Shown one piece after another: positions 5,220-58,014 of a stretch of DNA of 64,000 bases. A program made the translations under genes and the position numbers. The DNA is from Armatimonadota bacterium (GTDB taxonomy: Bacteria > Armatimonadota > Zipacnadia > Zipacnadales > JABUFB01). The stretch is from NCBI GenBank assembly GCA_013314775.1, contig JABUFB010000016.1, positions 79,099 to 143,098 of the forward strand, given 5' to 3'. Under the pieces are notes generated by a model. It saw only the letters and a program-made list of their open reading frames with translations. It did no database searches and had not been told where the DNA came from. Every line of letters begins with the position of its first letter. The first letter of the stretch is position 1.

Positions 5220-6853
5220 TGATCCCCTTTCGTCGGGCGATCCATAGACGCGATTGCCGGCAGAGCCTGTCTCTCGCCCCAGAAGTAGCCGATCTCCCGC
5301 GCAATTTCGACCGCCTGCCGGGCGTGTTCACGCGCCTGGTCGCCTTTTTCCAGTCGGGCGAGCAACACCAGTGCGTCAGCCTCTAAGTCGCGGCAGCCTG
5401 CCTGACGGAGATCTTGCAGGACCGTCCGCAGCGTGTCCAGCGCCGTCGCGGGGTCATCAGCCATGCGGCATCTCGCGCGTTGCAGCCTGGCTGCAAGTTG
5501 CAGACGTCTCCACTGCAGCTTCGCGGCGCGCGACTCTGCACGGGCGATGTGGTAATCGGCATCGGCCGGCCTCCCGGCGTCGAGATAGGCCAGCCCCAGC
5601 GCGAGTTCAGCCTCGGCGAGCACGTGTCCGCGTCCGGCGTCAATCGCTTTCTCGATACCCAGCCGCGCGTGGTTGCGTGCGCCATCAGAGTCCGCCTGGC
5701 AGCGGAGCATTTCAGACCGCAGCACTTCGACCAGCGCCTGGAGACGTGCGTCTGCCGCGAGTTCGGCCCAGTCTCCAAGCGCTTCGAGTCTCGCCGCCGC
5801 TTCTGAGAGCCGTCCGGTCCGCAGGAGGACGATGGCCTCGTTCAAAACCGCCTCGCGAACCTGGTCCGGCTGGGATGCCTGGGCGGCGATCTCCCGAAGG
5901 TCAGCGAGAAGTCTTCCGGCGAGGCCGTAGTCCCCCCGACTCAGCGCCAGGTTGACGCGGTTGGACAGGATGTATGTGCGGGCTGTGAGGACATATGTTT
6001 GGGGTTGATTGTCCGCCTCAGCGATCGCCTGCGCCTCGTCCAGGTACTGCTGCGCTGCGTCAGGGTAACCCGCCTGATCCTCCAGCGCCGCGAGAGATAC
6101 CCGACCCGCCCAGCGCGACCACCATGCGTCAGAATGTGCCAGCGCCAGGGCATGGTCTCGGGCTGCGATGAGATTGCCGGAAGCCTGCAGGACGCGGACC
6201 ATCTCCTGCAGGACTGACCTCTCAGCTCTGGTGTCACCGAGATCCCGCGCGGTCTCCAGAGCCTTCTCCAGTGACGCCCGTGCTCGCGGCAGGTCACTGC
6301 GTTCGAACCATGCGTGGCCCATGTGCAGGCGGGCTTCCAGGACAGCCTTTGATGCCCCACGATCTCGCGCTAGCTCCAGCAGTCTTGGGGCCGCCTCCAA
6401 CAGCGCTGCGGTATCGCCTAACCTTCGGTATGCCAGGCACAATTCGCGGACCGTCTCCAACATAGCGGCGTCATGCCGGTCCTTCTCCGCTGCTCGGCGT
6501 TCGCGTTCCGATGCAAGCTGACTTGCCAATGCTTCGACGTTCGTCTGGAGTGCGTCTCGTTCCGAGCGCAGGCTCTCGGCGTCGGCGGTAGTTGCGGACG
6601 GGTCATCCAGGAGGAACCAGGTGAGAGGCTTTCCGCACAAGTCTGCAATGGCCTGGAGCCGATCAAGGGGAGGAAGGGTTGTGCCTGCCACGTAGTTGTG
6701 GACGAGACCGCGCGTAACACCCATCTTCCGCGCGAAGGCGGCCAGGGAATCGTGCCCGGCCTCGGCGATGGCGGACTGTATGCGCGTTGCCAGGAGCTTC
6801 CGCCCGGTTTCGGTAGAGATGTCCACGGGGGGATAGTAGCATCGTCTACTCAT
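5216..6853 (-). CDS. Xre-family HTH regulator with TPR repeats
   Basis: A 545-residue protein. Residues 21-82 form an Xre/Cro-type helix-turn-helix (AFARKMGVTRGLVHNYVAG as the recognition region). A charged coiled coil follows at about 92-130 (SERDALQTNVEALASQLASE), and residues 135-540 are tetratricopeptide-like helical hairpins rich in LARELG/ALETARDLGDTRAE patterns. TPR-containing Xre proteins commonly sense peptides or partner proteins. The start is uncertain: ATG 6853 is used, TTG 6868 and a GTG near 6808 are alternatives, and none has a clear Shine-Dalgarno. The stop overlaps the start of the lipoprotein gene downstream. Perfect dyads directly upstream suggest autoregulation. Confidence 0.82.
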   Translation of the reverse strand: MSRRCYYPPVDISTETGRKLLATRIQSAIAEAGHDSLAAFARKMGVTRGLVHNYVAGTTLPPLDRLQAIADLCGKPLTWFLLDDPSATTADAESLRSERDALQTNVEALASQLASERERRAAEKDRHDAAMLETVRELCLAYRRLGDTAALLEAAPRLLELARDRGASKAVLEARLHMGHAWFERSDLPRARASLEKALETARDLGDTRAERSVLQEMVRVLQASGNLIAARDHALALAHSDAWWSRWAGRVSLAALEDQAGYPDAAQQYLDEAQAIAEADNQPQTYVLTARTYILSNRVNLALSRGDYGLAGRLLADLREIAAQASQPDQVREAVLNEAIVLLRTGRLSEAAARLEALGDWAELAADARLQALVEVLRSEMLRCQADSDGARNHARLGIEKAIDAGRGHVLAEAELALGLAYLDAGRPADADYHIARAESRAAKLQWRRLQLAARLQRARCRMADDPATALDTLRTVLQDLRQAGCRDLEADALVLLARLEKGDQAREHARQAVEIAREIGYFWGERQALPAIASMDRPTKGDQ

Positions 6854-6855
6854 AA

Positions 6856-6901
6856 TGTCAATTGACAATCTGTAATGACATTGTGTCTATTATAAATAGA
6901 C
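6856..6901. promoter_or_regulatory. divergent operator/promoter region with two perfect dyads
   Basis: An AT-rich island between divergent genes. It contains the palindrome TGTCAATTGACA (6856-6867) and the inverted repeat GTCTATT-ATA-AATAGAC (6885-6901). On the minus strand the second dyad includes a consensus TATAAT (6894-6889) suited to the HTH-TPR gene; on the plus strand TTGACA (6862-6867) and TATTAT (6888-6893) are 20 bases apart and could serve the divergent lipoprotein gene. Binding of the HTH protein to these dyads is an inference. Confidence 0.5.
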
Positions 6902-6990
6902 GACATCGCAACCCTGTTGAACATCGCTCTCGTTTCGGGGGTATAGTCTTCTTAGAGCCTCACCCAATTCTCTCCTCGGGAGTGGTAGCC

Positions 6991-7965
6991 TTGAAATCCG
7001 CACTTGCGCTTGCTCTGCTCGTCGTTGCATGTGTGCTGTCCGGCTGTGGTGGGGGTGGTGATGAGGTCGCCGGGTCATCCTCTGGAACTGCCATGATTGT
7101 CGGCACCGTAACGGCCCCCGGTGTTGCGACGTCCGCTGCCCCTGAGAACCCAGCCGCGTACTGCCAGGTTACCGTAGAAAACGCCCAGACCCGCACCCGT
7201 CTCGGATCAGGCCAGGCAGACGGCGTGGGGCAGTACAGCATCGGGCCTATCCGTTCGGGTCAGACGATCATGGTACGCGCCACCCTTCGGGATGGTACCC
7301 AGCTCAAAACTCGCGCCCAGGTGCGCGGCGGCAATTGCCGGGCCGACGTGGACCAGGATAGCACAATCGCGGCCGCAGTGGTCGAGTCCCTGCAGGATGC
7401 GGGTGTCACCGATGAGGACCTGCAGGGCGCGGCCTACGACGTGTGTGCTCAGTATCAGGCGCGAACTCGGTACCATTACCGGACCGCCGGCAATATCCCG
7501 CCAGACTTCACGAACCCCGACGAGGTGGACCAGACCGCTGGCGAACTGCTGGAGGCGGCAACACAGGCGGCCATAGCGACGGCCGTAGCCACCCGCACAC
7601 CCGGGGATTGCGACAACGCGGTGGCCATGGTGGAAGCGCGCCTGCGTGCAGGTGACGCCACCGCCACCGGTTGGGGCGCGGAGGTCCGCAGGCGGCTCTC
7701 CGTGGCGATGCAGAATGGTCGGAAGTTCACGGCCGAGGAAGTGGCAGAAGCCGCAACGGCCGCGGTCCTGGGCACAGTGCAGTCGGCAGGGGGGGACCTG
7801 GTCCGCAACCAGTTTGAGCAGCGGATACGTCACCATTACGCCGGAACGATGGAAGGGCCCGAGGCACTCGAGGTTCTCTGCGCCAGCGAGGGAACCCCGG
7901 ACCAAGTTCGCCTCAAGACCCAGCAACAGGTTCGCGACTGCGTAAACGTGCTCTTGGCGGGCTAG
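6991..7965 (+). CDS. lipoprotein of unknown function
   Basis: A 324-residue lipoprotein. The signal peptide ends at VLSGC (Cys19) followed by a glycine run. The mature part begins with a transthyretin-like beta-sandwich segment (MIVGTVTAPG ... QYSIGPIRSGQTIMVRA), then becomes helical and alanine-rich (AATQAAIATAVATRTPG, EEVAEAATAAVLGTVQ). TTG at 6991 is selected: GGGAG lies 8 bases upstream and it puts the signal peptide at the very N-terminus. It is divergent from the HTH-TPR gene and shares its control region. The CarboxypepD-like start resembles the lipoprotein at 4797, suggesting that both are outputs of one regulator. Confidence 0.75.
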   Translation: MKSALALALLVVACVLSGCGGGGDEVAGSSSGTAMIVGTVTAPGVATSAAPENPAAYCQVTVENAQTRTRLGSGQADGVGQYSIGPIRSGQTIMVRATLRDGTQLKTRAQVRGGNCRADVDQDSTIAAAVVESLQDAGVTDEDLQGAAYDVCAQYQARTRYHYRTAGNIPPDFTNPDEVDQTAGELLEAATQAAIATAVATRTPGDCDNAVAMVEARLRAGDATATGWGAEVRRRLSVAMQNGRKFTAEEVAEAATAAVLGTVQSAGGDLVRNQFEQRIRHHYAGTMEGPEALEVLCASEGTPDQVRLKTQQQVRDCVNVLLAG

Positions 7966-8081
7966 TCGCTGGATTCTGTAGTGGCGTCAGTCTGATTTGA
8001 CGCAGTCGCGTACAGTGAATGCAGCGCAACAAACCACGGGTAGACTGGATGTGTCGGCAGCCGGAAATCAGGAGGGTTCCA

Positions 8082-48387: not shown

Positions 48388-50076
48388 TTAGCCAGGCAGC
48401 CCGCGCTGAGGCACAGGCAGGCGAATGGTCATGGTCGTCCCGGCGCCCACTCGGCTGTCCACCTCGAGGCTTCCCCCGTGTTCTTCCTCAACGATCCGTC
48501 GCGTGGAATGAAGCCCCAGACCTGTTCCGGTGGCCTTGGTGGTGAAAAAAGGCTCAAAAAGCTGCGCCTGAATATCCTCGGGGATGCCGGGGCCGTTATC
48601 TGTGACTTCCAGCAACACCTCATGGTCCTCGAGGGTCGTGGTGATGATGACCTTCGCATTCTCCTGTCTGTCCAGAGCGTCGGCTGCGTTGAGGATCAAG
48701 TTCAGCAGCGCTCGCTCCATCTGCGGCGGGTCGAGACGCAGTTGCGGCAGATTGTCGGCGAGATGAAGCTCAATCGCGATGCCTCGGTGGATGAGCTCGG
48801 TTCGGACCAGGGTGAGGGTGCTGTCCACAATCGGGTTCAGGTCTCCGAGTTCCAGCACCACGTCGGATGCCCGGGAGAAAGCCAGCAGGCGCTGGACCAT
48901 GGTTTGGAGACGTTCCATCTGCCGGCCAAGCACATCCCGCGCGCGCTCGTCCACCTGTTTCCCACTCAGCAACAGGTCCACCAGAGGTTTGATAGGGGTC
49001 ACAATGTTCGCCATGTCATGGGCGATGCTGGCCGCCAGCGTGCCCACCGTCGCCACGCGCTCAGAGCGAACCAGTTGATCCTGGGCTGCGCGCAGGTCGT
49101 CATAGGCGCTACGTAGATCGGTATAAAGACGCGCGTTCTCCAATGCGATTGCCGTCTGGGCTGCGATGCCGTTGACCAGATGCACATCGTTCTCGCTGAA
49201 GACATGGGTCTGGGAGGATGTGTCCAGATAGATGACGCCGATCGGTTGGCCGTGAGCAATCATCGGCGCGCAGATGGCGGATCGAATGCGCAAGTCGTGG
49301 ACGCTGTCGGCATCCATGAAACGGGCATCGGCGGTGGCGTCACTGGTGAGAATGGCCATGCGCTGCGAAAGGGCTTGATCTACTATGTGCGCGCTAATCC
49401 GCAGGGCAGACGTGTCTTCTCCGGGTTCGATGTTGTCCCCGCGGCGACGCACCACTCGAGGGATGGGCTGGGGTGGGTCACCCTCAAGAAGCAGCAGAGA
49501 TGCCTGCTCGGCCGGGATGACGTTCATGATGCGGTCCACGGCGACGCGCAGCAGGTGCGGGACTTCGAGGATCGATCCCAGCGCCAGGGCGAAGTCGAGA
49601 AGCACTCCGAGCCGATAACGGGCATCGGCGCCGTCTTCCATTCCGCCGGGAGCGTGGACGGCGTCCAGCGCGAAAACGATACGGGCATCGCCGCCACCTG
49701 CGCCCTCGTCGGTTGGTTCATCGGCAACCAGAACCACCTGGTCCGCCGGGTCAGGATCAGCGCCGGTGTCATCCATGAGTTCGAGCCGGAGCCAGGTGCG
49801 GCCAATGCGGAAGCGGTCGCCGGGTTTGAGCGGTGCGGGGGCATAGATGCGCCGGCTGCCAAGGAAGGTCCCATTCGCGCTGGCCTGGTCTTCGAGGAAC
49901 CACTCGCCAGACCGCCGCACCAGGCGGGCGTGATGGCGAGAAGCTTTCAGGTCGGTGGGCAGGCAGACATCATTATCCGGCTTGCGCCCGATGGTCACAG
50001 AGTCGGACGTGAGGGGGAACTCCATTCCGGCGAGATCGCCGTCAATGACAACGACGCGCATCATCCCCGGCACCAT
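48388..50076 (-). CDS. FHA-GAF histidine kinase
   Basis: A 562-residue cytosolic kinase. Residues 6-100 are a forkhead-associated domain (VTIGRKPDND, SRHHARLV at 47-54, and DQASANGTFLGS near 63-74), which reads phosphothreonine. Residues about 165-320 form a GAF domain (AEQASLLLLEGD, SAICAPMIAHGQPIGVIYLD). The dimerisation helix carries IAHDMANIVTP with His353. The ATPase has LNLILNAADAL, VTDNGPGIP, LFEPFFTTKATGTGLGL. No response regulator lies next to it. FHA input suggests coupling to Ser/Thr kinases. Start at 50076 is a choice between three ATGs near the N-terminus. Confidence 0.9.
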   Translation of the reverse strand: MVPGMMRVVVIDGDLAGMEFPLTSDSVTIGRKPDNDVCLPTDLKASRHHARLVRRSGEWFLEDQASANGTFLGSRRIYAPAPLKPGDRFRIGRTWLRLELMDDTGADPDPADQVVLVADEPTDEGAGGGDARIVFALDAVHAPGGMEDGADARYRLGVLLDFALALGSILEVPHLLRVAVDRIMNVIPAEQASLLLLEGDPPQPIPRVVRRRGDNIEPGEDTSALRISAHIVDQALSQRMAILTSDATADARFMDADSVHDLRIRSAICAPMIAHGQPIGVIYLDTSSQTHVFSENDVHLVNGIAAQTAIALENARLYTDLRSAYDDLRAAQDQLVRSERVATVGTLAASIAHDMANIVTPIKPLVDLLLSGKQVDERARDVLGRQMERLQTMVQRLLAFSRASDVVLELGDLNPIVDSTLTLVRTELIHRGIAIELHLADNLPQLRLDPPQMERALLNLILNAADALDRQENAKVIITTTLEDHEVLLEVTDNGPGIPEDIQAQLFEPFFTTKATGTGLGLHSTRRIVEEEHGGSLEVDSRVGAGTTMTIRLPVPQRGLPG

Positions 50077-51346: not shown

Positions 51347-52090
51347 TCATGCCGGCTTGCGGGCTTCCACAAGCACGTAGGGGACGTGCACAAATGCCTG
51401 CCAGTTGCCCCGGGTGTGGTCAAGTTGGTTCGCGACTGAGGCGACGCGCCGGCGGCTTTGGGGGTCAAGATGCAGGCCCATGAGCAGGCGCGCACCGTCG
51501 GAGTTCGGGGGGCAAGGTATGTTCTGCAATTCCACGCGCACGTGGAGCCCCACGCGTTCGGCGGCTCCTGGGAGTTTTCGGCCGACCTGCGGATCCGCGC
51601 CTGCCGCGAGTAGTCCATCAAGCCACAGGTCGCGCAGAGAGATCTCGGGGGGAAACTCCAGCATCCCCCCGTAATCGGGTTCGATTGCGACCAGCAAGCC
51701 GCCCGGAGCCAGCACGCGCGCCGTCTCGGCCATCGATCGGTCGAGATCAGCGATCCAGAGGAGGGCGTTCTGGCACAGGACCAGATCGAAGCATCTGTCC
51801 GGGAAGGGCAGCGCAGTGGCATCAGCCTGCACCAGGGGCCCGGTGAAAATGCCGGAACGCCGGGCAGGGCCCGCATCCTTGTCCAAGCCAATTACCAATC
51901 CGCCGGCAGCATCCGATCGCCGCTGGAGTTCGGCGGTTACATTGCCGTGACCGCAGCCAATCTCCAGCACCCGGCGTCGCAGGGCGATCTGTGCCCTGCG
52001 CAGGAGCCTGCCACGAGGCCCGGCAAGCCAGTCGGACAGGCGGATCGCCTCGTCGAGTGCGGGCAGGCCGGGCCTTTCTTCGATGCTCAT
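51347..52090 (-). CDS. class I SAM-dependent methyltransferase
   Basis: A 247-residue enzyme with motif I VLEIGCGHGN, the acidic motif II VIGLDKDAG, DATALPFPDRCFDLVLCQNALLW (motif III/IV), and APGGLLVAIEPD. The fold is Rossmann-like and cytosolic. The ATG at 52090 overlaps the TGA of the Cys-Ala tail protein gene (ATGA), so the two are translationally coupled. Target not known. Its linkage to the radical SAM genes makes a modification role for the Cys-Ala tail or for a cofactor plausible but unproven. Confidence 0.88.
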   Translation of the reverse strand: MSIEERPGLPALDEAIRLSDWLAGPRGRLLRRAQIALRRRVLEIGCGHGNVTAELQRRSDAAGGLVIGLDKDAGPARRSGIFTGPLVQADATALPFPDRCFDLVLCQNALLWIADLDRSMAETARVLAPGGLLVAIEPDYGGMLEFPPEISLRDLWLDGLLAAGADPQVGRKLPGAAERVGLHVRVELQNIPCPPNSDGARLLMGLHLDPQSRRRVASVANQLDHTRGNWQAFVHVPYVLVEARKPA

Positions 52091-53928
52091 CTGCCGCCGC
52101 CTGCGCAAGCGCAGGCACAGGCACAACCGGCACACGCACACGCGCAACCGCCGCCTCCACCCCCGCTCCCGCTGCTCTTGGACATTGCTTCGAGCATGTC
52201 CAGCGTCACTTTGTCCACGCCGGACAAGTCCACGATGGCCTGCGCGTCCAAGCCGATTCGCACCGGGTCCATCTGGGATGCCAGGCCGCCCGCCACATTC
52301 TCAGTCCAGCCGGCGAAGGATGACGCGACATCACCGAAGCTGGTGCGGGACGTGTCCGGAGTAGGCAGTGAGACCTGTCCCGCGCCACTGTCACCAAAGA
52401 CCGTTCCGCGGCTCCAGGGAGGCCGATAGTGGTAACCGTGGCTGTGCCAGTAGCCGAAGTCATCCCGGTAGGTGGGGGAGACCATGAGCCATTCCAGATT
52501 GTCATCGGTGTGCTTCGTGCGGTCCTCGACATCGCCGATGGACTTGGCATTCGCCCATGCCTTGGAGATGATGTAAGTGTAGTAGCTGCGGGTCTTGGCC
52601 AGGTCGAAGCCCTGCATGCGCTTGACGGTGCCGTCGATCAGTTCCTTCATGGCCTTGGCGAACTTGATCTTGGGTACAGGCACTTCGCCGGCTGCCAGGA
52701 GCGCCTCAATGAACGGCTGCTCGTACCCGTGGATGACCTTGCCAGCAAGAGCGGCGGCCTTGCGCCGGTCGCCCCGGCTTTCCTTTGCGAAGGCCTCGTT
52801 GACTCGGATGACCAATGGATCGGCGCTCACCTGCTCGCAAATGCCTTTCTTGAGGAGACCGAAGAGAACCAATGTCAGCACTTCGTTCAGCGGTCGCTCG
52901 AGGATCACCGCCGCTTCCGGCGCCGTGAGCCCGCGCTTGACCCCGCCGCCTTCGACTGATGCAATCGCCGGCAGGTACTTCCCGCGCTTGCGTCTCAGAG
53001 AGCGCTCAGACAGGAGCCAAAGAAGGGGCAGGATGGGTATCGCGATCAGTTGCGCCACAGGGTTCAGGATGAACAGCCACGCGAAGATGAGCAGCAGACC
53101 CAGGAAGCAACTGATGCCCGTTCCCTGGCTTGCGCGGAAGAACATGATCCCAAAGAGGATCGCGAGGATCACGCCCCAGACAAAGCGAGTATTCGGGTTG
53201 TCCTTCCACCACTTCACAAGCAGATCCCACTTGCTCATGGTGACCACGCGGCTCATCCCGCGCTTCGGGAAGGACAGGGCGACCATGTTGGGTCCGTCGA
53301 TCCGGGCCGCAGGCATGAACCATGCAGCCACGGTGTTGGTGTCGGTCACCGCCTTGCTGGTGAAGTTCAGACCCTGGTGCAATACCTCTTCCGGCTTGAT
53401 GTCCTTCGGCAGATAGACCACGATTCCGAGTTTCGTGGTGCCCTGCACGTACTGGGACCCGAACCACGTGGGCGTGATTCTCAGGGACGCGTAGTCGGGC
53501 CGGGTGGTGTCCTGGTAGACCCGATTGGGCATGGTGCAGCGGAAGAGGAATGTCCCACGCTGGCCAGGCTGAATGGTGGCGGCACCCAGCGGAACCGCGA
53601 CACCGATGGGGATATAGTCAGACTTTTCGATTCCCGTACATTCGTACTTCTGCCCGGACGCGTCGATGACCGCGGCTTCCATGTTGCTGATGTCGTAGTC
53701 CCGGTCGGGCAGGCCCACATCCACGAAGTCAATGGGGTGGGCGCCGGGCGCACACTCGAAGAGGATCTCGTAGAAAAGCTCCACGGAGGCGTCCGGGTTG
53801 ACCGTGACTGCGAAGGTCATCTCAGGGACTGAGAACAGGTAGTCCTGAGCCATGCAACTGGTGCTCAGCGTCAGCAATGACAGGGCCAGGACCACGCCGG
53901 CCCGGTGTGAGATATCGGGCTTCATCAT
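52087..53928 (-). CDS. DUF2207-like membrane protein with C-terminal Cys-Ala tail
   Basis: A 613-residue protein. A signal peptide (about 1-27) is followed by an extracytoplasmic beta domain. Three helices lie near 249-265, 271-289 and 291-307, then RRKRGK, which puts the C-terminal half in the cytosol. The cytosolic part begins GLTAPEAAVILERPLNEVL, a winged-helix-like segment as in DUF2207/TIGR04222 proteins. The end is Gly6, then CACACA-G-CACACACA-GGGR: Cys595, 597, 599, 602, 604, 606 and 608 alternate with Ala. The ATG at 53928 overlaps the stop of the radical SAM-like gene upstream. The tail is a candidate substrate for the linked maturases. Confidence 0.85.
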   Translation of the reverse strand: MMKPDISHRAGVVLALSLLTLSTSCMAQDYLFSVPEMTFAVTVNPDASVELFYEILFECAPGAHPIDFVDVGLPDRDYDISNMEAAVIDASGQKYECTGIEKSDYIPIGVAVPLGAATIQPGQRGTFLFRCTMPNRVYQDTTRPDYASLRITPTWFGSQYVQGTTKLGIVVYLPKDIKPEEVLHQGLNFTSKAVTDTNTVAAWFMPAARIDGPNMVALSFPKRGMSRVVTMSKWDLLVKWWKDNPNTRFVWGVILAILFGIMFFRASQGTGISCFLGLLLIFAWLFILNPVAQLIAIPILPLLWLLSERSLRRKRGKYLPAIASVEGGGVKRGLTAPEAAVILERPLNEVLTLVLFGLLKKGICEQVSADPLVIRVNEAFAKESRGDRRKAAALAGKVIHGYEQPFIEALLAAGEVPVPKIKFAKAMKELIDGTVKRMQGFDLAKTRSYYTYIISKAWANAKSIGDVEDRTKHTDDNLEWLMVSPTYRDDFGYWHSHGYHYRPPWSRGTVFGDSGAGQVSLPTPDTSRTSFGDVASSFAGWTENVAGGLASQMDPVRIGLDAQAIVDLSGVDKVTLDMLEAMSKSSGSGGGGGGCACACAGCACACACAGGGR

Positions 53929-55217
53929 TCGGTGTCAGCCTCCGGTGAATCATCACTCCAACCGGCCGGGTCTTCGGGCGGCCAGGCCTCGCAGATCGGC
54001 AGGTCCGGGCAGGCGGCGCTCTGACTCGGGGCCTCCACCTGCTCACGGTAACGGGTGAAGCATGGGCTGTTCCAGATCTCCTGCCAGGTCTGTTTCAGGA
54101 TATTTCCGGCGCATGTCCGTGGCCCGCGGGCCGGGAATACCGACCCGTCCGGCTCCACGCGTACGGCGACATCGCTCCCCGCGCGAGGCCCAGCGATCAC
54201 GTGAGATGCGAGGTCAATACGCGGATTGAACCTGACCGGCGGCTGCCAGATGATACGCCGACCGAAGTTCTCGGCGGCTTCGAAAACCGTAGTGGCCGCC
54301 TGGGGCAATGCTCTCGCCGGGAGAGCGCCCGCCGCATCAGCCTCCTCCTCGCCGTCCAGACATGCCAGGGCGAAGAACCAGATGTCGGTGACATCGCGGC
54401 CTGCAATGAACTCCACCATCTCATCAAGCTCCCCAAGGGTCCGATCGGTGATGGGGCACTGGGCAATTGGGCACAACTCCAGCTCTCGGCAGTGATCCCA
54501 CACCGCTTGTACGCGAAGGAAGTCCCCTTCGGCACGAACCATTTCCTCGTGCTCCGCGGGGTCTGCTGAAGCGAAGACCAGCGCGAGATAGTCCAGGCCC
54601 GCGTTGGCCATCTCCCTCAAGACTCCCGATGGCACCCAACTGGCGATGGCGCGCACGCCCGCAATCATTCCGAGGTCCTCGGTGAACTCCACCGTGCGTA
54701 CAAGCGCGCCGGGGTCGGTGTCGGGACTGATCACGATGTTTACCTGGGGGATTGCCGCGTCCCACAGGCTCCGCAAGATCGGCTGCATCTGCTCCAGCGT
54801 GCCCATGGTGACGTCGGCGCTGTAGGGTGATGCGAGTTTCCTGCCGTCTGCACCAAGTTCCGCGCCAACCAGATTAGTGATGGGGTAGTCCGAACGACGG
54901 GCCGTCAGATCTGAAACCAGAGCCCGGACGCGCTGGAAGTCAGCGCGAACCTGTGCATCGGCTGCGCCCGCGAACCTGGCTTTGACGGCCCGGAGAATCT
55001 CCTCGTCCGGATGACCGGCCAGCACTCCGTAGACCATCAGCACACCCACGGGGGACAGGTGCGCGGCCTCGGCGGCGTTGGCGAGAAGCATGCCGCCGCC
55101 GTCGGGGTCTACGCGCAGGTGGAAACGCGTGGGAGTCTCGCCTTCGAGCACCATGAAATGGTGCAGACCGGGCCCGACGGTGGCCTCGTCATCCCTCTTC
55201 CCTGGGTCCTGGTTCAT
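53925..55217 (-). CDS. degenerate radical SAM/SPASM-like protein (no cluster loop)
   Basis: A 430-residue paralogue of the gene immediately upstream. Residues about 22-105 match the PqqD-like leader-binding domain of the neighbour (RFHLRVDPDGGGM, HLSPVGV). Barrel strands then align, but between SPYSADV (130-136) and MGTLEQMQPIL the CxxxCxxC loop is absent, about 22 residues short, and the GGEP of the neighbour is replaced by SPDTDP. A C-terminal SPASM-like region retains VEPDGSVFP and several Cys but not the full set. It cannot bind the SAM cluster and is presumably a partner or precursor-binding subunit. GGAGG precedes the ATG at 55217. Confidence 0.78.
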   Translation of the reverse strand: MNQDPGKRDDEATVGPGLHHFMVLEGETPTRFHLRVDPDGGGMLLANAAEAAHLSPVGVLMVYGVLAGHPDEEILRAVKARFAGAADAQVRADFQRVRALVSDLTARRSDYPITNLVGAELGADGRKLASPYSADVTMGTLEQMQPILRSLWDAAIPQVNIVISPDTDPGALVRTVEFTEDLGMIAGVRAIASWVPSGVLREMANAGLDYLALVFASADPAEHEEMVRAEGDFLRVQAVWDHCRELELCPIAQCPITDRTLGELDEMVEFIAGRDVTDIWFFALACLDGEEEADAAGALPARALPQAATTVFEAAENFGRRIIWQPPVRFNPRIDLASHVIAGPRAGSDVAVRVEPDGSVFPARGPRTCAGNILKQTWQEIWNSPCFTRYREQVEAPSQSAACPDLPICEAWPPEDPAGWSDDSPEADTE

Positions 55218-55224
55218 GCGCGGC

Positions 55225-56685
55225 TCAATCCTCCCGTTTGTTCGGGGCGTCAGACGCAAGCGCGCCAACAGCCCCTGCAAGATCGCACTCAAGCTCCTGC
55301 CGCCTCAGTGGACAGCCTCCCCCGCACACCTGCAGGTCTTCACAGTTCCAGCATTTCTCTGGCAGCCCCGACTGTCGTGGGTCCTCGCGCCTCATACGGA
55401 TTGTGCGGAACAAGTCGCTGTCCCAGATGCACTCCCAACCATCGCGCAGGAGATTGCCCGCAGGCTCGTAGTACGACTGGCAGGGCAGTACATCGCCGTT
55501 GGGCTCCACGCAGACCGAGTACTCCGCGGCATTGCAGCACTTGGGCCCGAGGCCCAGTTCCAGGGGCGAAAGACGGCAATACTCCGTGGGAGTGTACCAC
55601 AGCATCGCCATGTCATTGACCCGCGCGTATTCCAGCAGACTTGCGAGCACCGGCGAGAGTTCGAATTCGCGCAGCCCCGCCGGGTTGCACCGGCCGGATC
55701 CCGAGCAGATCATACTGTTGACCGCGAAGGTTCTCACGCCCAGGTCGCGCACCAGGGTGAGGGTCTCCAGTATGTGCCCGCAATTGTCACGGGTCAGCGT
55801 TGTGTTGGTGATGGTATGCAGCCCTGCCGTTACGCAATTGCGGATGCCCTCAACCGTTTCCGCGTGGGCGTTGGCCTGGACGATGCGGTTGTGTACTGCC
55901 GGTTGGTTGGACAGGAGGGTGATCTGCACGTGGTCCAGGCCGGCACTGGCGAGCTTCCTGACGAAGGCCGCATCTGACAGGCGTCGACCGTTGGTGTTTA
56001 GGCCGCAGAGGATCCCGAGCTTCTCGGCCAGGCGCACCAGTCCGGCCAATTGCGGATGCAGCGTCGGTTCACCCCCGGTGAAAATGAGGTGCGGCACACC
56101 GACCTGCGCCAGCGTGCGGATGACCTGGCGCCATTGCGCGCCGTCCAGGTGCGGCAGAGCCCTCCTGCCCGGCTCATTGTAGCAGTGCAGGCAGGCGTTG
56201 TTGCAGTCGTAGGTCAGGGCCAGGTCCGCCTTGTATGGAGCCTTCGCCCGGGTCGTGAAGAGGTCAGTCCGCTGCAAGCCTGGCGCGCAGGCAGGACAGG
56301 ATACTGACGGCTCGCCGGCGCGGTTCACAAGGTCAGCGAGGAGCCCCACATCTGCCGCCAGATCGTCCAGGGGCGCATTAGGATGCCAGCGCTTGAGGCA
56401 GGCCGTGATTTGCGCCGGGCTAACGCCATCCAGCAGCATCCTGGTGATCTCGGTAGCGCTGGGGGAGAGGTGGATCGGGTCGCACACATTCACGAACAGG
56501 GCGCCACTGCCGTCGTTGTGGACTCGCAGATGCACCCGGGTCTTCCCGGACCGGCTCTCTTTGCGGTAAGTGTAGAGCCCCGGTGCACTGTGGCCGCGCC
56601 CGAATACCACACGCATCTGGCGCATGAATACTCGCCAGTCTTCGGTCACCGCGTTCAGCGCCCAGCCGACAGTCCTCCTTACCAC
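55225..56685 (-). CDS. radical SAM/SPASM maturase with PqqD-like N-terminus
   Basis: A 486-residue enzyme. A PqqD-like (RiPP recognition) domain spans about 40-122. The SAM cluster motif is Cys161-x3-Cys165-x2-Cys168 (YDCNNACLHCYN), followed by TGGEPTLH (203-210) for SAM binding. The SPASM domain is complete: Cys384-x12-Gly397-x4-Cys402, then Cys445-x2-Cys448-x5-Cys454-x3-Cys458 and Cys467. Such enzymes install thioether or carbon-carbon crosslinks in peptides. GTG 56685 is the start: GAGGAGG lies 7 bases upstream, inside the end of the zinc-ribbon gene, and the genes overlap by 7 bases. Confidence 0.93.
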   Translation of the reverse strand: MVRRTVGWALNAVTEDWRVFMRQMRVVFGRGHSAPGLYTYRKESRSGKTRVHLRVHNDGSGALFVNVCDPIHLSPSATEITRMLLDGVSPAQITACLKRWHPNAPLDDLAADVGLLADLVNRAGEPSVSCPACAPGLQRTDLFTTRAKAPYKADLALTYDCNNACLHCYNEPGRRALPHLDGAQWRQVIRTLAQVGVPHLIFTGGEPTLHPQLAGLVRLAEKLGILCGLNTNGRRLSDAAFVRKLASAGLDHVQITLLSNQPAVHNRIVQANAHAETVEGIRNCVTAGLHTITNTTLTRDNCGHILETLTLVRDLGVRTFAVNSMICSGSGRCNPAGLREFELSPVLASLLEYARVNDMAMLWYTPTEYCRLSPLELGLGPKCCNAAEYSVCVEPNGDVLPCQSYYEPAGNLLRDGWECIWDSDLFRTIRMRREDPRQSGLPEKCWNCEDLQVCGGGCPLRRQELECDLAGAVGALASDAPNKRED

Positions 56686-57002
56686 TTGGGCGCCTCCTCA
56701 ATGTGGTACGAGGTGCCACAGTAAGGGCATTTGACGATGATCGCGCCCTCCTGCATGCTGATGGACTTTTCGTCCAGCGGGGCGCCGCAGTTGCGGCACT
56801 TGAGCTGTTCGGTGTTCACATCGCCCGTGACATCGATCTTCTGGACGATGGTGCGCTCGGGAGCCTTCATGCTCGTAAGCCAGCCAATGACCACCCCGGC
56901 GCCGATGAGCACAATGCCAATGATTATCCGGGCCGGCAGGCCCTGGTTGCCGATCAGGAAGACCAGACCCAGGAGACCGACAATCCCGGCGAGCGCGTAC
57001 AT
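56679..57002 (-). CDS. membrane protein with C-terminal zinc ribbon
   Basis: A 107-residue protein with two hydrophobic helices (about 3-18 and 26-44) and a cytosolic zinc ribbon: Cys69-x2-Cys72 and Cys92-x2-Cys95 (CRNCGAP, KCPYCGTSY). It is the first gene of the radical SAM operon and overlaps the maturase start. The ribbon might recruit RNA or protein near the membrane. ATG 57002 follows GAAGAGTGG; the frame extends 21 codons upstream to an ATG at 57065 without a better signal. Confidence 0.72.
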   Translation of the reverse strand: MYALAGIVGLLGLVFLIGNQGLPARIIIGIVLIGAGVVIGWLTSMKAPERTIVQKIDVTGDVNTEQLKCRNCGAPLDEKSISMQEGAIIVKCPYCGTSYHIEEAPKW

Positions 57003-57348
57003 TCCACTCTTCAATATAGCTGCGAGCCGCCGCCGGCAGCCCGCGTCACCTCCTCTTCGGTACATGTTTTCTCATGCACAATTCGGCGTGTGGCGGAGCG
57101 GGACCTTCGTCGATGCAGACATACCTGTCTGGTTCGCGTTCTGTAGGCCGATTGGGCGCCGTGCGGTTCAGTGCGGCGAAAAAGACCCAGAAATAAGGAA
57201 GAAAGACCATAAATATAGTAATTGTCACATTTTGTTATTCATTGACACCATAAATTATCTACCAGAAACCACAATAAGAGGATGCAATACGCTTCCGCCC
57301 GTGTATACTATTGTCAGCGTTCGACCCCATGTTCTTTGGAGGCCGACT
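57003..57348. other. intergenic divergent region
   Basis: 346 bases between the radical SAM operon and the PEP-CTERM gene with no gene. The half nearest the operon is GC-rich leader; 57190-57310 is AT-rich, with TTGACA at 57242-57247 lacking a well-spaced -10, and TATACT (57304-57309) about 40 bases before the PEP-CTERM ATG, the best promoter candidate. TGTCA (57223) and TGACA (57243) form a widely spaced inverted pair. Confidence 0.45.
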
Positions 57349-58014
57349 ATGCGTTTGCTATTGCCAATTGCCTTGCTCGCGGTTGTCGCCGCGTTTCCAG
57401 CCGGGGCCTCTACCCTCACTCCTTGGCAGACGGTCGCGACCAGCTGGGCCCCCGCCACGGGAACAGGCAGTGTCGGTTTCAACCAATTCGATACCCTCGG
57501 GGGCACGCTGACGCTCTTGAGCATCGAGTGGGAGTTCTCGACCTACGTCGACGGCTTAGCCGACTACAAGAACAACGGCACTCAGAATGCCATTGGCTGC
57601 TTCTACCAGTTCTACGATACCACCAACGTGGAGGACGGCCTGGGCAACTCTCTGGGCAGCTATGTGCCGACTTATACTTCCGGGTTGTTTGCGGTGAATG
57701 TTGGCGCTACGGTGAGCAAAGGCGGCGACAGTTCCGTCGAGGGGGCCAGTGGCGTATGGAACACCGCCCCGTACATCGCCTACTTCAGTGGGAATGGCGT
57801 CGTCACGGGCTTCTCCTTCGATGCAACCTTGTATGAGGTCTTCGGCAAGCCCGACTACGTGACGGTCACCGACTACACGAATACCACTTACATCCAGGGG
57901 CGTATTCGGTACGAGTATGAGGAGAGCCAGGATATCCCCGAGCCAGGCACCATAGCCCTGTTTGGTCTGGGCCTGCTGGGTGTGGGAACCGTCATACGCC
58001 GCCGCAGCGCCTGA
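57349..58014 (+). CDS. PEP-CTERM sorted exported protein
   Basis: A 221-residue protein. GGAGG precedes the ATG; a signal peptide covers 1-21. The mature body is a choice-of-anchor type beta-sandwich (VGFNQFDTLGGTLTLLSIEWEF). The C-terminus is the full PEP-CTERM sorting signal: PEPGTIALFGLGLLGVGTVI then RRRSA. An exosortase elsewhere in the genome should process it. No exosortase gene lies in the window. Confidence 0.93.
   Translation: MRLLLPIALLAVVAAFPAGASTLTPWQTVATSWAPATGTGSVGFNQFDTLGGTLTLLSIEWEFSTYVDGLADYKNNGTQNAIGCFYQFYDTTNVEDGLGNSLGSYVPTYTSGLFAVNVGATVSKGGDSSVEGASGVWNTAPYIAYFSGNGVVTGFSFDATLYEVFGKPDYVTVTDYTNTTYIQGRIRYEYEESQDIPEPGTIALFGLGLLGVGTVIRRRSA

Follow-up and report, generated by a model that had tools for sequence, protein, structure and literature searches.

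Here we describe a putative protein-maturation system in a 64,000-nucleotide stretch of DNA from an Armatimonadota bacterium (GenBank assembly GCA_013314775.1, contig JABUFB010000016.1, positions 79,099 to 143,098; genome size 6.1 Mb), which we call the window. Five of its genes encode a small zinc-ribbon membrane protein (ZNR), a radical S-adenosylmethionine (SAM) enzyme with a SPASM domain (rSAM), a degenerate paralogue of that enzyme (DEG), a larger membrane protein that ends in a cysteine-alanine tail (TAIL), and a methyltransferase (MT). Our analysis indicates that rSAM probably modifies the cysteines of the invariant tail of its neighbor, most likely through thioethers to nearby alanines. 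That the tail is the substrate of rSAM is strongly supported by inference: it has its own enzyme family, the clade of the enzyme matches the type of tail, the tail is conserved and disordered, and a leader-like helix precedes it. A preliminary description of this DNA had named the tail as the candidate substrate, and on these grounds we retain that proposal.

Organization of the gene set

The open reading frames (ORFs) of the window show five intact, mostly coupled genes, all on the minus strand, between positions 51347 and 57065. Their features, including a predicted recognition element (RRE) of the kind that guides enzymes to ribosomally synthesized and post-translationally modified peptides (RiPPs), are as follows:

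56679..57065, minus: ZNR, heading the set: small membrane protein with a zinc ribbon (CxxC...CxxC) at its C-terminus; sub-threshold zinc-ribbon profile matches
55225..56685, minus: rSAM, radical SAM/SPASM enzyme, putative tail-modifying maturase; Pfam Radical_SAM 7.5e-23, SPASM 1.3e-8
56317..56583, minus: predicted RRE (PqqD-like) domain of rSAM, residues 35-123; three strands, then three helices in the AlphaFold model
56182..56205, minus: CX3CX2C cluster motif of rSAM (C161, C165, C168); invariant in 41 of 41 aligned rSAMs
55312..55536, minus: SPASM domain of rSAM with auxiliary-cluster cysteines; Pfam match and alignment
53925..55292, minus: DEG, degenerate rSAM paralogue, RRE region retained, CX3CX2C stretch absent; alignment to rSAM, with SPASM as the sole profile match
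52087..53928, minus: TAIL, with signal peptide, outer beta domain, three transmembrane (TM) helices, cytosolic helical domain and disordered C-terminus bearing the Cys-Ala tail; AlphaFold predicted local distance difference test (pLDDT) 84
53239..53847, minus: outer beta domain of TAIL; nearest folds Ost1/ribophorin I and the N-terminal domain of M1 aminopeptidases
52978..53196, minus: three predicted TM helices of TAIL; from model and sequence, with the topology inferred
52273..52350, minus: leader-like conserved helix of TAIL, residues 527-552, inside an otherwise disordered pre-tail region; conservation 0.72
52090..52146, minus: Cys-Ala tail CACACAGCACACACAGGGR, where the modification is predicted; conservation averages 0.94, and 0.99 over the last 12 residues
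51347..52090, minus: MT, closing the set: class I SAM methyltransferase; Pfam Methyltransf_11 8.5e-19, kept in relatives' sets

The preliminary description had five same-direction genes joined by stop/start overlaps, and this holds for the genes, their strand and most of the overlaps: the stop codon of ZNR overlaps the GTG start of rSAM, and the DEG/TAIL and TAIL/MT junctions each read as an ATGA overlap, the true start of MT being the ATG at 52090 and not the TTG at 52147. The rSAM/DEG junction may lack an overlap, because DEG could start either at an overlapping TTG (55292) or at an ATG (55217) that lies 8 bases past the rSAM stop and has GGAGG upstream. Two starts are also possible for ZNR, at 57065 or at 57002, the latter being the one adopted in the preliminary description.

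The tail is the most conserved part of TAIL

TAIL has 613 residues, and its translation ends in CACACAGCACACACAGGGR followed directly by the stop codon, confirming the earlier claim of a membrane protein with seven cysteines alternating with alanine at its end. A Lys/Arg-rich stretch lies directly past the third TM helix, which places the C-terminus, in all likelihood, in the cytosol; in the AlphaFold model the tail region is disordered and sits on a long tether.

Homologues were sought in a collection of 5.8 billion proteins, where only the candidates sharing most words with a query were scored (7997-7998); the words for TAIL came from its first 500 residues, so that the tail itself was excluded. 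Of the 7997 candidates scored for TAIL, 728 qualify as homologues at E≤1e-3, and the tail is kept in 120 of the 120 best: 119 have CACACA, followed by GGGR in 117 and by GGGE in 2, and one has CACACVCAGGGR, an A-to-V change. A tail protein from Lachnospiraceae, used as query, gave 2748 homologues at E≤1e-3 among 7997-7998 scored candidates, with the tail present in 116 of the 120 best and the other four being shorter and tail-less. Bacillota tails extend past GGGR (GGGRAGC[ST].KDFY); many non-Bacillota tails stop exactly at GGGR.

Within the protein, the tail is the most conserved part. In an alignment of 79 sequences (A2), columns of the signal peptide have a mean conservation of 0.33, compared with 0.61 in the beta domain, 0.49 in the TM helices and 0.59 in the cytosolic domain; the mean is 0.42 for residues 497-526, rises to 0.72 in the helix at 527-552, and reaches 0.94 in the tail and 0.99 in its last 12 residues. 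Those last 12 residues have 36 different DNA spellings across 36 tail genes from relatives, with TGT about as common as TGC. So many spellings of a single 12-residue end indicate that selection acts on the peptide and not on the DNA, and we therefore reject an RNA- or DNA-level role of the tail sequence.

The enzyme and the tail occur together

We surveyed genomes for the enzyme in four samples: Armatimonadota relatives of the window (n=151), Lachnospiraceae (Lachnoclostridium family, n=150), the class of Ornatilinea (n=150) and the Asgard phylum of a Heimdallarchaeote (n=148). Among the 151 window relatives, rSAM (E≤1e-60) is present in 35 genomes and the tail pattern in 39, with both in 34, rSAM only in 1, the tail only in 5 and neither in 111 (Fisher p 2.6e-27). 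The reversed tail DNA pattern has no match in these genomes, compared with 39 genomes for the forward pattern; this result, together with the retention of the tail in all 120 best homologues, shows that the tail is not a chance match. In the Lachnospiraceae sample, 13 of 150 genomes carry rSAM, adjoined by the strict pattern in 10 and by the variant CACACACASSGRAGC in 3, and the strict pattern is absent from the other 137, which have no rSAM. The class of Ornatilinea has rSAM in 36 of 150 genomes (tail in the same locus in 28, elsewhere in the genome in 4, none seen in 4), and the phylum of the Heimdallarchaeote in 54 of 148 (39, 7 and 8, respectively).

The preliminary description had proposed, as a check, that the tailed gene should be the constant neighbor of the maturase. 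This is largely the case: over the four samples, a Cys tail is found in 125 of 138 rSAM-carrying genomes, and 67 of the 78 tail-bearing genomes in two samples have it in the same locus. The exceptions are the 11 of 78 with the tail elsewhere and the 13 of 138 with none seen. Two tails for one rSAM occur in two genomes (G002, G482) and one locus (L087), which fits an enzyme that acts on several substrates.

The survey was also run from the tail. A DNA pattern for CACACAGGG was scanned over 84,980 species plus viral contigs. It matched at least 118 stretches in the species scan and 4 in viral contigs, and the spread reported here is that of this sample. Of the 122 loci listed, reading frame and position mark 114 as real tails and 8 as chance matches. 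The 114 real tails listed are spread over 20 NCBI phylum names (five unnamed); Bacillota account for 45 tails and Chloroflexota for 27. Archaeal names among the matches listed include Heimdall-, Hod- and Sigynarchaeota, Bathyarchaeota, Thermoproteota, Thermoplasmatota and Methanobacteriota. An rSAM-family ORF with CX3CX2C lies in the fetched stretch (≤8 kb) of 80 of these 114, on the same strand in 78 (the other two being L128 and L148) and within 1.5 kb in 75. Ornatilinea apprima, which is in culture, carries both rSAM and a tail (L113). The remaining 34 comprise 2 loci with DEG only, 9 with an rSAM-family fragment only and 23 with none; 19 of these 23 are cut ≤1.5 kb from the tail on one side, which could be that of rSAM or the opposite one, and in L131, L142, L144 and L155 both flanks extend further. 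None of the 8 chance-match loci has any rSAM-family ORF. Of 149 ORFs that matched the window rSAM at E≤1e-30, 140 went into the rSAM profile, some of which came from tail loci; the loci were chosen by tail DNA alone. A spread by viruses is rejected: three of the four viral-contig loci are chance matches, and the tail of the fourth (L190) is real and lies close to where the fetched stretch ends.

Both opposite-strand loci (L128 and L148, 1-8000 in each; Anaerolineales) show a rearranged arrangement: an rSAM that carries a GGGGCSGCSGSCGTGG-like stretch at its own C-terminus adjoins a shortened, tail-less TAIL homologue, and DEG and the tailed protein lie on the other strand.

All five genes are found in window order in 16 of 39 fetched loci of relatives, and most of the other 23 end at a contig end. 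The distant relatives L063 and L064 have the zinc ribbon, tail gene, rSAM and MT without DEG, and their tails read CACACACASCACACAGGGR or near it; L065 and L066 have no matches in the five-gene tally. ZNR homologues head the set in Armatimonadota and stand ahead of the tail gene in Chloroflexota and Bathyarchaeota loci. In Bacillota, tail proteins (L095, L103, L133 and others) contain an internal zinc ribbon that resembles the separate ZNR of the window, a natural fusion that would link the two. In L046, about 2.4 kb (about 5384-7820) separate rSAM from DEG in an otherwise intact set. L214 and L215, from the class of Ornatilinea, have rSAM and a methyltransferase, then a thioredoxin/glutaredoxin-like gene (judged by eye), with no adjacent tail; the L215 genome has a tail on another contig.

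The enzyme clade follows the tail type

A second tail code, class II, is built from CHSA repeats and occurs in membrane proteins ending ...DACHSACHSACHSACVHDACHSACVHDACHSACHSACVCHSACHSACHSACVGRF (Ornatilinea class sample) or ...SRCVSHDACHSACVSHDACHSACHSACHSACVCHSACHSACHSACVSGGFR (Asgard phylum sample). It is found in the rSAM locus of 13 genomes of the Ornatilinea class and 17 of the Asgard phylum, and the rSAMs beside it form a more distant subfamily with 31-39% identity to the query. Class II proteins are apparently related to those of class I: the layout is the same, both have sub-threshold DUF2207 matches, and there is one weak match at E 5e-5. In a tree of 80 rSAMs, a single change accounts for the tail type (100/100 support). 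The bacteria/archaea label takes 4 changes, and one common archaeal clade is rejected (approximately unbiased test, p-AU 8.2e-5). Leaving out the four rows with no tail seen (76 rows) still gives one change of tail type. Thus the enzyme follows the tail, not the host.

The putative maturase and its partners

The AlphaFold model of rSAM (pLDDT 90) has SkfB, SuiB, BlsE, PqqE and anSME among its nearest solved folds, with SkfB and SuiB ranked above anSME and BlsE seventh. The cluster motif CX3CX2C is invariant in all 41 aligned rSAMs, and all 41 have SPASM (PF13186; 35.4 bits in the window rSAM, cut-off 21.5). The predicted RRE is seen in the window enzyme as an order of strands and helices in the model only; the PqqD-like profile PF05402 matches 11 of 41 rSAM relatives (E<0.01). 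The best NCBIfam scores of rSAM, for NirJ2, GeoRSP, AhbD and PqqE, are all under cut-off: 99-105 bits for NirJ2, AhbD and PqqE (cut-offs 381-500) and 101.5 bits for GeoRSP_rSAM (TIGR04303, cut-off 400). The ACGX rSAM family (TIGR04340) is likewise not reached, at 64.4 bits with a cut-off of 400, and in each of the 25 best NCBIfam families listed rSAM falls far short of the curated cut-off. MT does not reach the DVU_1556 methyltransferase family (NF045667; 66.7 bits, cut-off 155).

DEG aligns with rSAM at 25% identity over 435 columns (E 6e-28), and CX3CX2C falls in a gap. Full-length DEG is confined, among mapped loci, to Armatimonadota, Chloroflexota and one Planctomycetota locus, and MT occurs in only a subset of loci. 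The suggestion in the preliminary description that rSAM and DEG modify the tail as a pair is therefore not supported; the constant partner of the tail is a single rSAM, predicted to be active.

A defense function was considered and rejected. PADLOC gave just viperin matches, which fall in the rSAM barrel, and a mad2 match to MT; the pVip match to rSAM (2.5e-17) covers residues 157-304, the shared barrel only, and we read it as superfamily similarity because rSAM also has SPASM and a predicted RRE.

Comparison with known families

The label DUF2207-like, given to TAIL in the preliminary description, is borne out only weakly. PF09972 (DUF2207) has no match in the window protein up to E 1, and reaches sub-threshold scores in its relatives (22.2 bits in L284, the best tested, 14.6 in L270 and 14.5 in L095; gathering cut-off 24.4). 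Like TAIL, DUF2207 proteins sit in the membrane, have a beta domain on the outside and end in a Gly-rich C-terminus; we know of none with a Cys tail or an rSAM partner. The TIGR04222 profile, which describes membrane proteins with a Gly/Cys-rich tail, matches neither the window TAIL (up to E 0.1) nor six relatives (up to 0.01).

In a fold comparison covering residues 28-322 (VIA-align), Ost1 (ribophorin I of the oligosaccharyltransferase) is among the closest folds to the TAIL beta domain. Identity is 9%, the ribophorin I Pfam profile has no match up to E 1 in 8 TAIL proteins, and no Cys tail is known to us in Ost1; a common fold would not in itself show a common function. A search of solved structures with the A2 sequence profile gave just one chance match (E 6.2). 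No curated Pfam or NCBIfam family is above cut-off for TAIL, in the window or in tested relatives, and we reject membership of a curated family for the set, since beyond the general Radical_SAM, SPASM and methyltransferase domains none is above cut-off for the window proteins and tested TAIL relatives. Where relatives are named at source, the names are hypothetical protein, radical SAM protein and zinc ribbon domain-containing protein. In the open-licence PubMed Central (PMC) literature that was searched, we found no account of the tail system, neither of the strings CACACAGGGR and CHSACHSAC, and no pairing of DUF2207 with radical SAM. Deletion of SMU.243, a DUF2207 protein of S. mutans, alters stress tolerance and biofilm (PMC10457818).

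The closest known systems are the sactipeptide and ranthipeptide maturases SkfB, AlbA, CteB, SuiB and RumMC1/2 (RRE plus SPASM or twitch), with which rSAM shares CX3CX2C, SPASM, a predicted N-terminal RRE and a Cys-rich target encoded next door. In contrast to their short, variable leader-core peptides, here a membrane protein several hundred residues long would supply the substrate with its C-terminal end, which is near-invariant across phyla and two domains. The system would work like an RRE-guided rSAM/SPASM maturase, yet it lacks one defining feature of RiPP systems, the short free leader-core precursor: its Cys-rich stretch closes a membrane protein of 613 residues. QhpD and anSME also act on residues of proteins rather than on RiPP peptides, but their targets are enzymes (quinohemoprotein amine dehydrogenase and sulfatases), not a repetitive tail. 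For QhpD, modification of the residues of a whole protein by an rSAM/SPASM enzyme is described in PMC8326336. GeoRSP (TIGR04303) and ACGX (TIGR04340) are rSAM/SPASM systems as well; here, however, the target is a membrane protein, and scores lie far under their cut-offs. GeoRSP pairs with a partner that has no working rSAM center, and ACGX has a Cys repeat peptide, whose C-x3-C spacing is common to the class II CHSA repeats.

Proposed mechanism

We propose that the tail is presented in the cytosol on a flexible, Gly-rich tether, and that the RRE of rSAM would bind the conserved pre-tail helix as if it were a leader peptide. The enzyme would then oxidize the run of cysteines as in a sactipeptide or ranthipeptide core, so that a compact, crosslinked knob would form at the cytosolic side of the membrane. 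By analogy, a thioether to alanine is the most likely chemistry, because rSAM resembles sactisynthases and because ruminococcin C provides a precedent: a thioether to alanine is described in PMC8188230. In Armatimonadota and many Chloroflexota, DEG and the methyltransferase are present in addition, putatively for substrate handling and for a later step, respectively. Our guess is that the modified protein would couple the outer beta domain to a cytosolic function in the envelopes of anaerobes.

A broader view, to which we give slightly less than an even chance, is that this is an ancient maturation system of bacteria and archaea, in which a membrane protein carries its own C-terminal leader and core, and its Cys-Ala (class I) or Cys-His-Ser-Ala (class II) tail is tied into a cytosolic knob by an rSAM/SPASM enzyme. 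The enzyme clades would be matched to the two codes, the pairs would be common to bacteria and Asgard archaea, and the outer domain would have the fold of the translocon-associated Ost1.

Known rSAM/SPASM maturases come chiefly from pathways to short, fast-changing peptide products. The enzyme described here is of the same kind, but it goes with a near-invariant membrane-protein tail in thousands of predicted proteins, among them those of Asgard archaea and of Lachnospiraceae from the gut. Should the predicted modification occur, RiPP chemistry would here serve a conserved housekeeping purpose, and there would be a widespread, so far unstudied route for modifying membrane proteins. The tail would then also offer a defined, short, repetitive test substrate, and the pairing of two tail codes with two enzyme clades makes the specificity directly testable.

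Weighing the alternatives

Several observations weigh against modification of the tail by rSAM. No tail was seen in 13 of 138 rSAM genomes. Of these, G013, the sole tail-less rSAM genome among the window relatives, has a contig that ends inside the tail gene; in G313 and G435, rSAM lies at a contig end, and the genome-wide search covered the class I pattern only; G586 and G465 have rSAM fragments, and their search was confined to part of the genome; G559 has a tail-protein fragment only. The other seven (G312, G331, G490, G509, G515, G497 and G567) have no such contig cut at hand. Conversely, 5 of the 39 tail genomes among the window relatives show no rSAM at E≤1e-60 (G021, G023, G025, G029 and G076, all fragmented assemblies). 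No tail adjoins rSAM in the Asgard loci L250-L255 or in L214 and L215, and in L059, which reads DEG-TAIL-MT, there is no rSAM in the 3.8 kb upstream, the rSAM of that genome being on another contig. Finally, the PqqD model (PF05402) has no match in the window rSAM, the non-peptide enzyme BlsE is also high among its fold matches, and a Cys-rich tail could equally bind metal.

This last point leads to an alternative that we consider unlikely, in which the tail is left unmodified and serves as a metal- or redox-binding stretch (Cys, or Cys/His in class II), and rSAM acts on another substrate of the pathway. The Cys/His repeats of class II (CHSA) resemble metal ligands, and 54 of 106 tail ORFs have a zinc-ribbon-like motif, either internally or in a small ORF immediately before them, by a loose motif count whose 106 ORFs include three chance-match loci (L092, L188 and L191). 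However, one rSAM clade per tail type, the predicted RRE and the two tails per rSAM in some genomes fit tail modification better, and a strict C-A-C-A alternation is, to our knowledge, unusual among metal sites.

It is likewise improbable that rSAM oxidizes the tail cysteines in some other way than to Cys-Ala thioethers, for example by forming formylglycine, the product of anSME, or through Cys-Cys or Cys-backbone bonds. The solved folds nearest to rSAM include anSME, whose target is a Cys within a complete protein, but SkfB and SuiB stand above it in the same list, and the CxPxR-type motif of anSME is absent from the tail.

We think it most unlikely that the modified tail is cleaved and released as a peptide product, with the membrane protein as its carrier. 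The long disordered tether in the model would allow this, and the conserved AGC[ST].KDFY past GGGR in Bacillota could mark a cleavage site; many non-Bacillota tails, however, end exactly at GGGR, and we noticed no recurring protease or exporter in the gene maps, in which neighbors were not searched by family. Least probable of all is that rSAM makes a small-molecule cofactor used or carried by the membrane protein, as its resemblance to heme-pathway and PQQ enzymes, its NirJ2, GeoRSP, AhbD and PqqE scores and the small-molecule enzyme BlsE among its fold matches might suggest, since those NirJ2, AhbD and PqqE scores lie far below their cut-offs and the tracking of tail sequence by enzyme clade would be left unexplained.

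Neighboring genes

Upstream of the set, a divergent gene (window about 57350-58014, plus strand) encodes a secreted protein whose translation has a PEP-CTERM-like end, PEPGTIALFGLGLLGVGTVIRRR. Downstream lies an FHA-GAF-histidine kinase gene (window 48388-50076, minus strand), which also adjoins the set in L031, a relative of the same genus.

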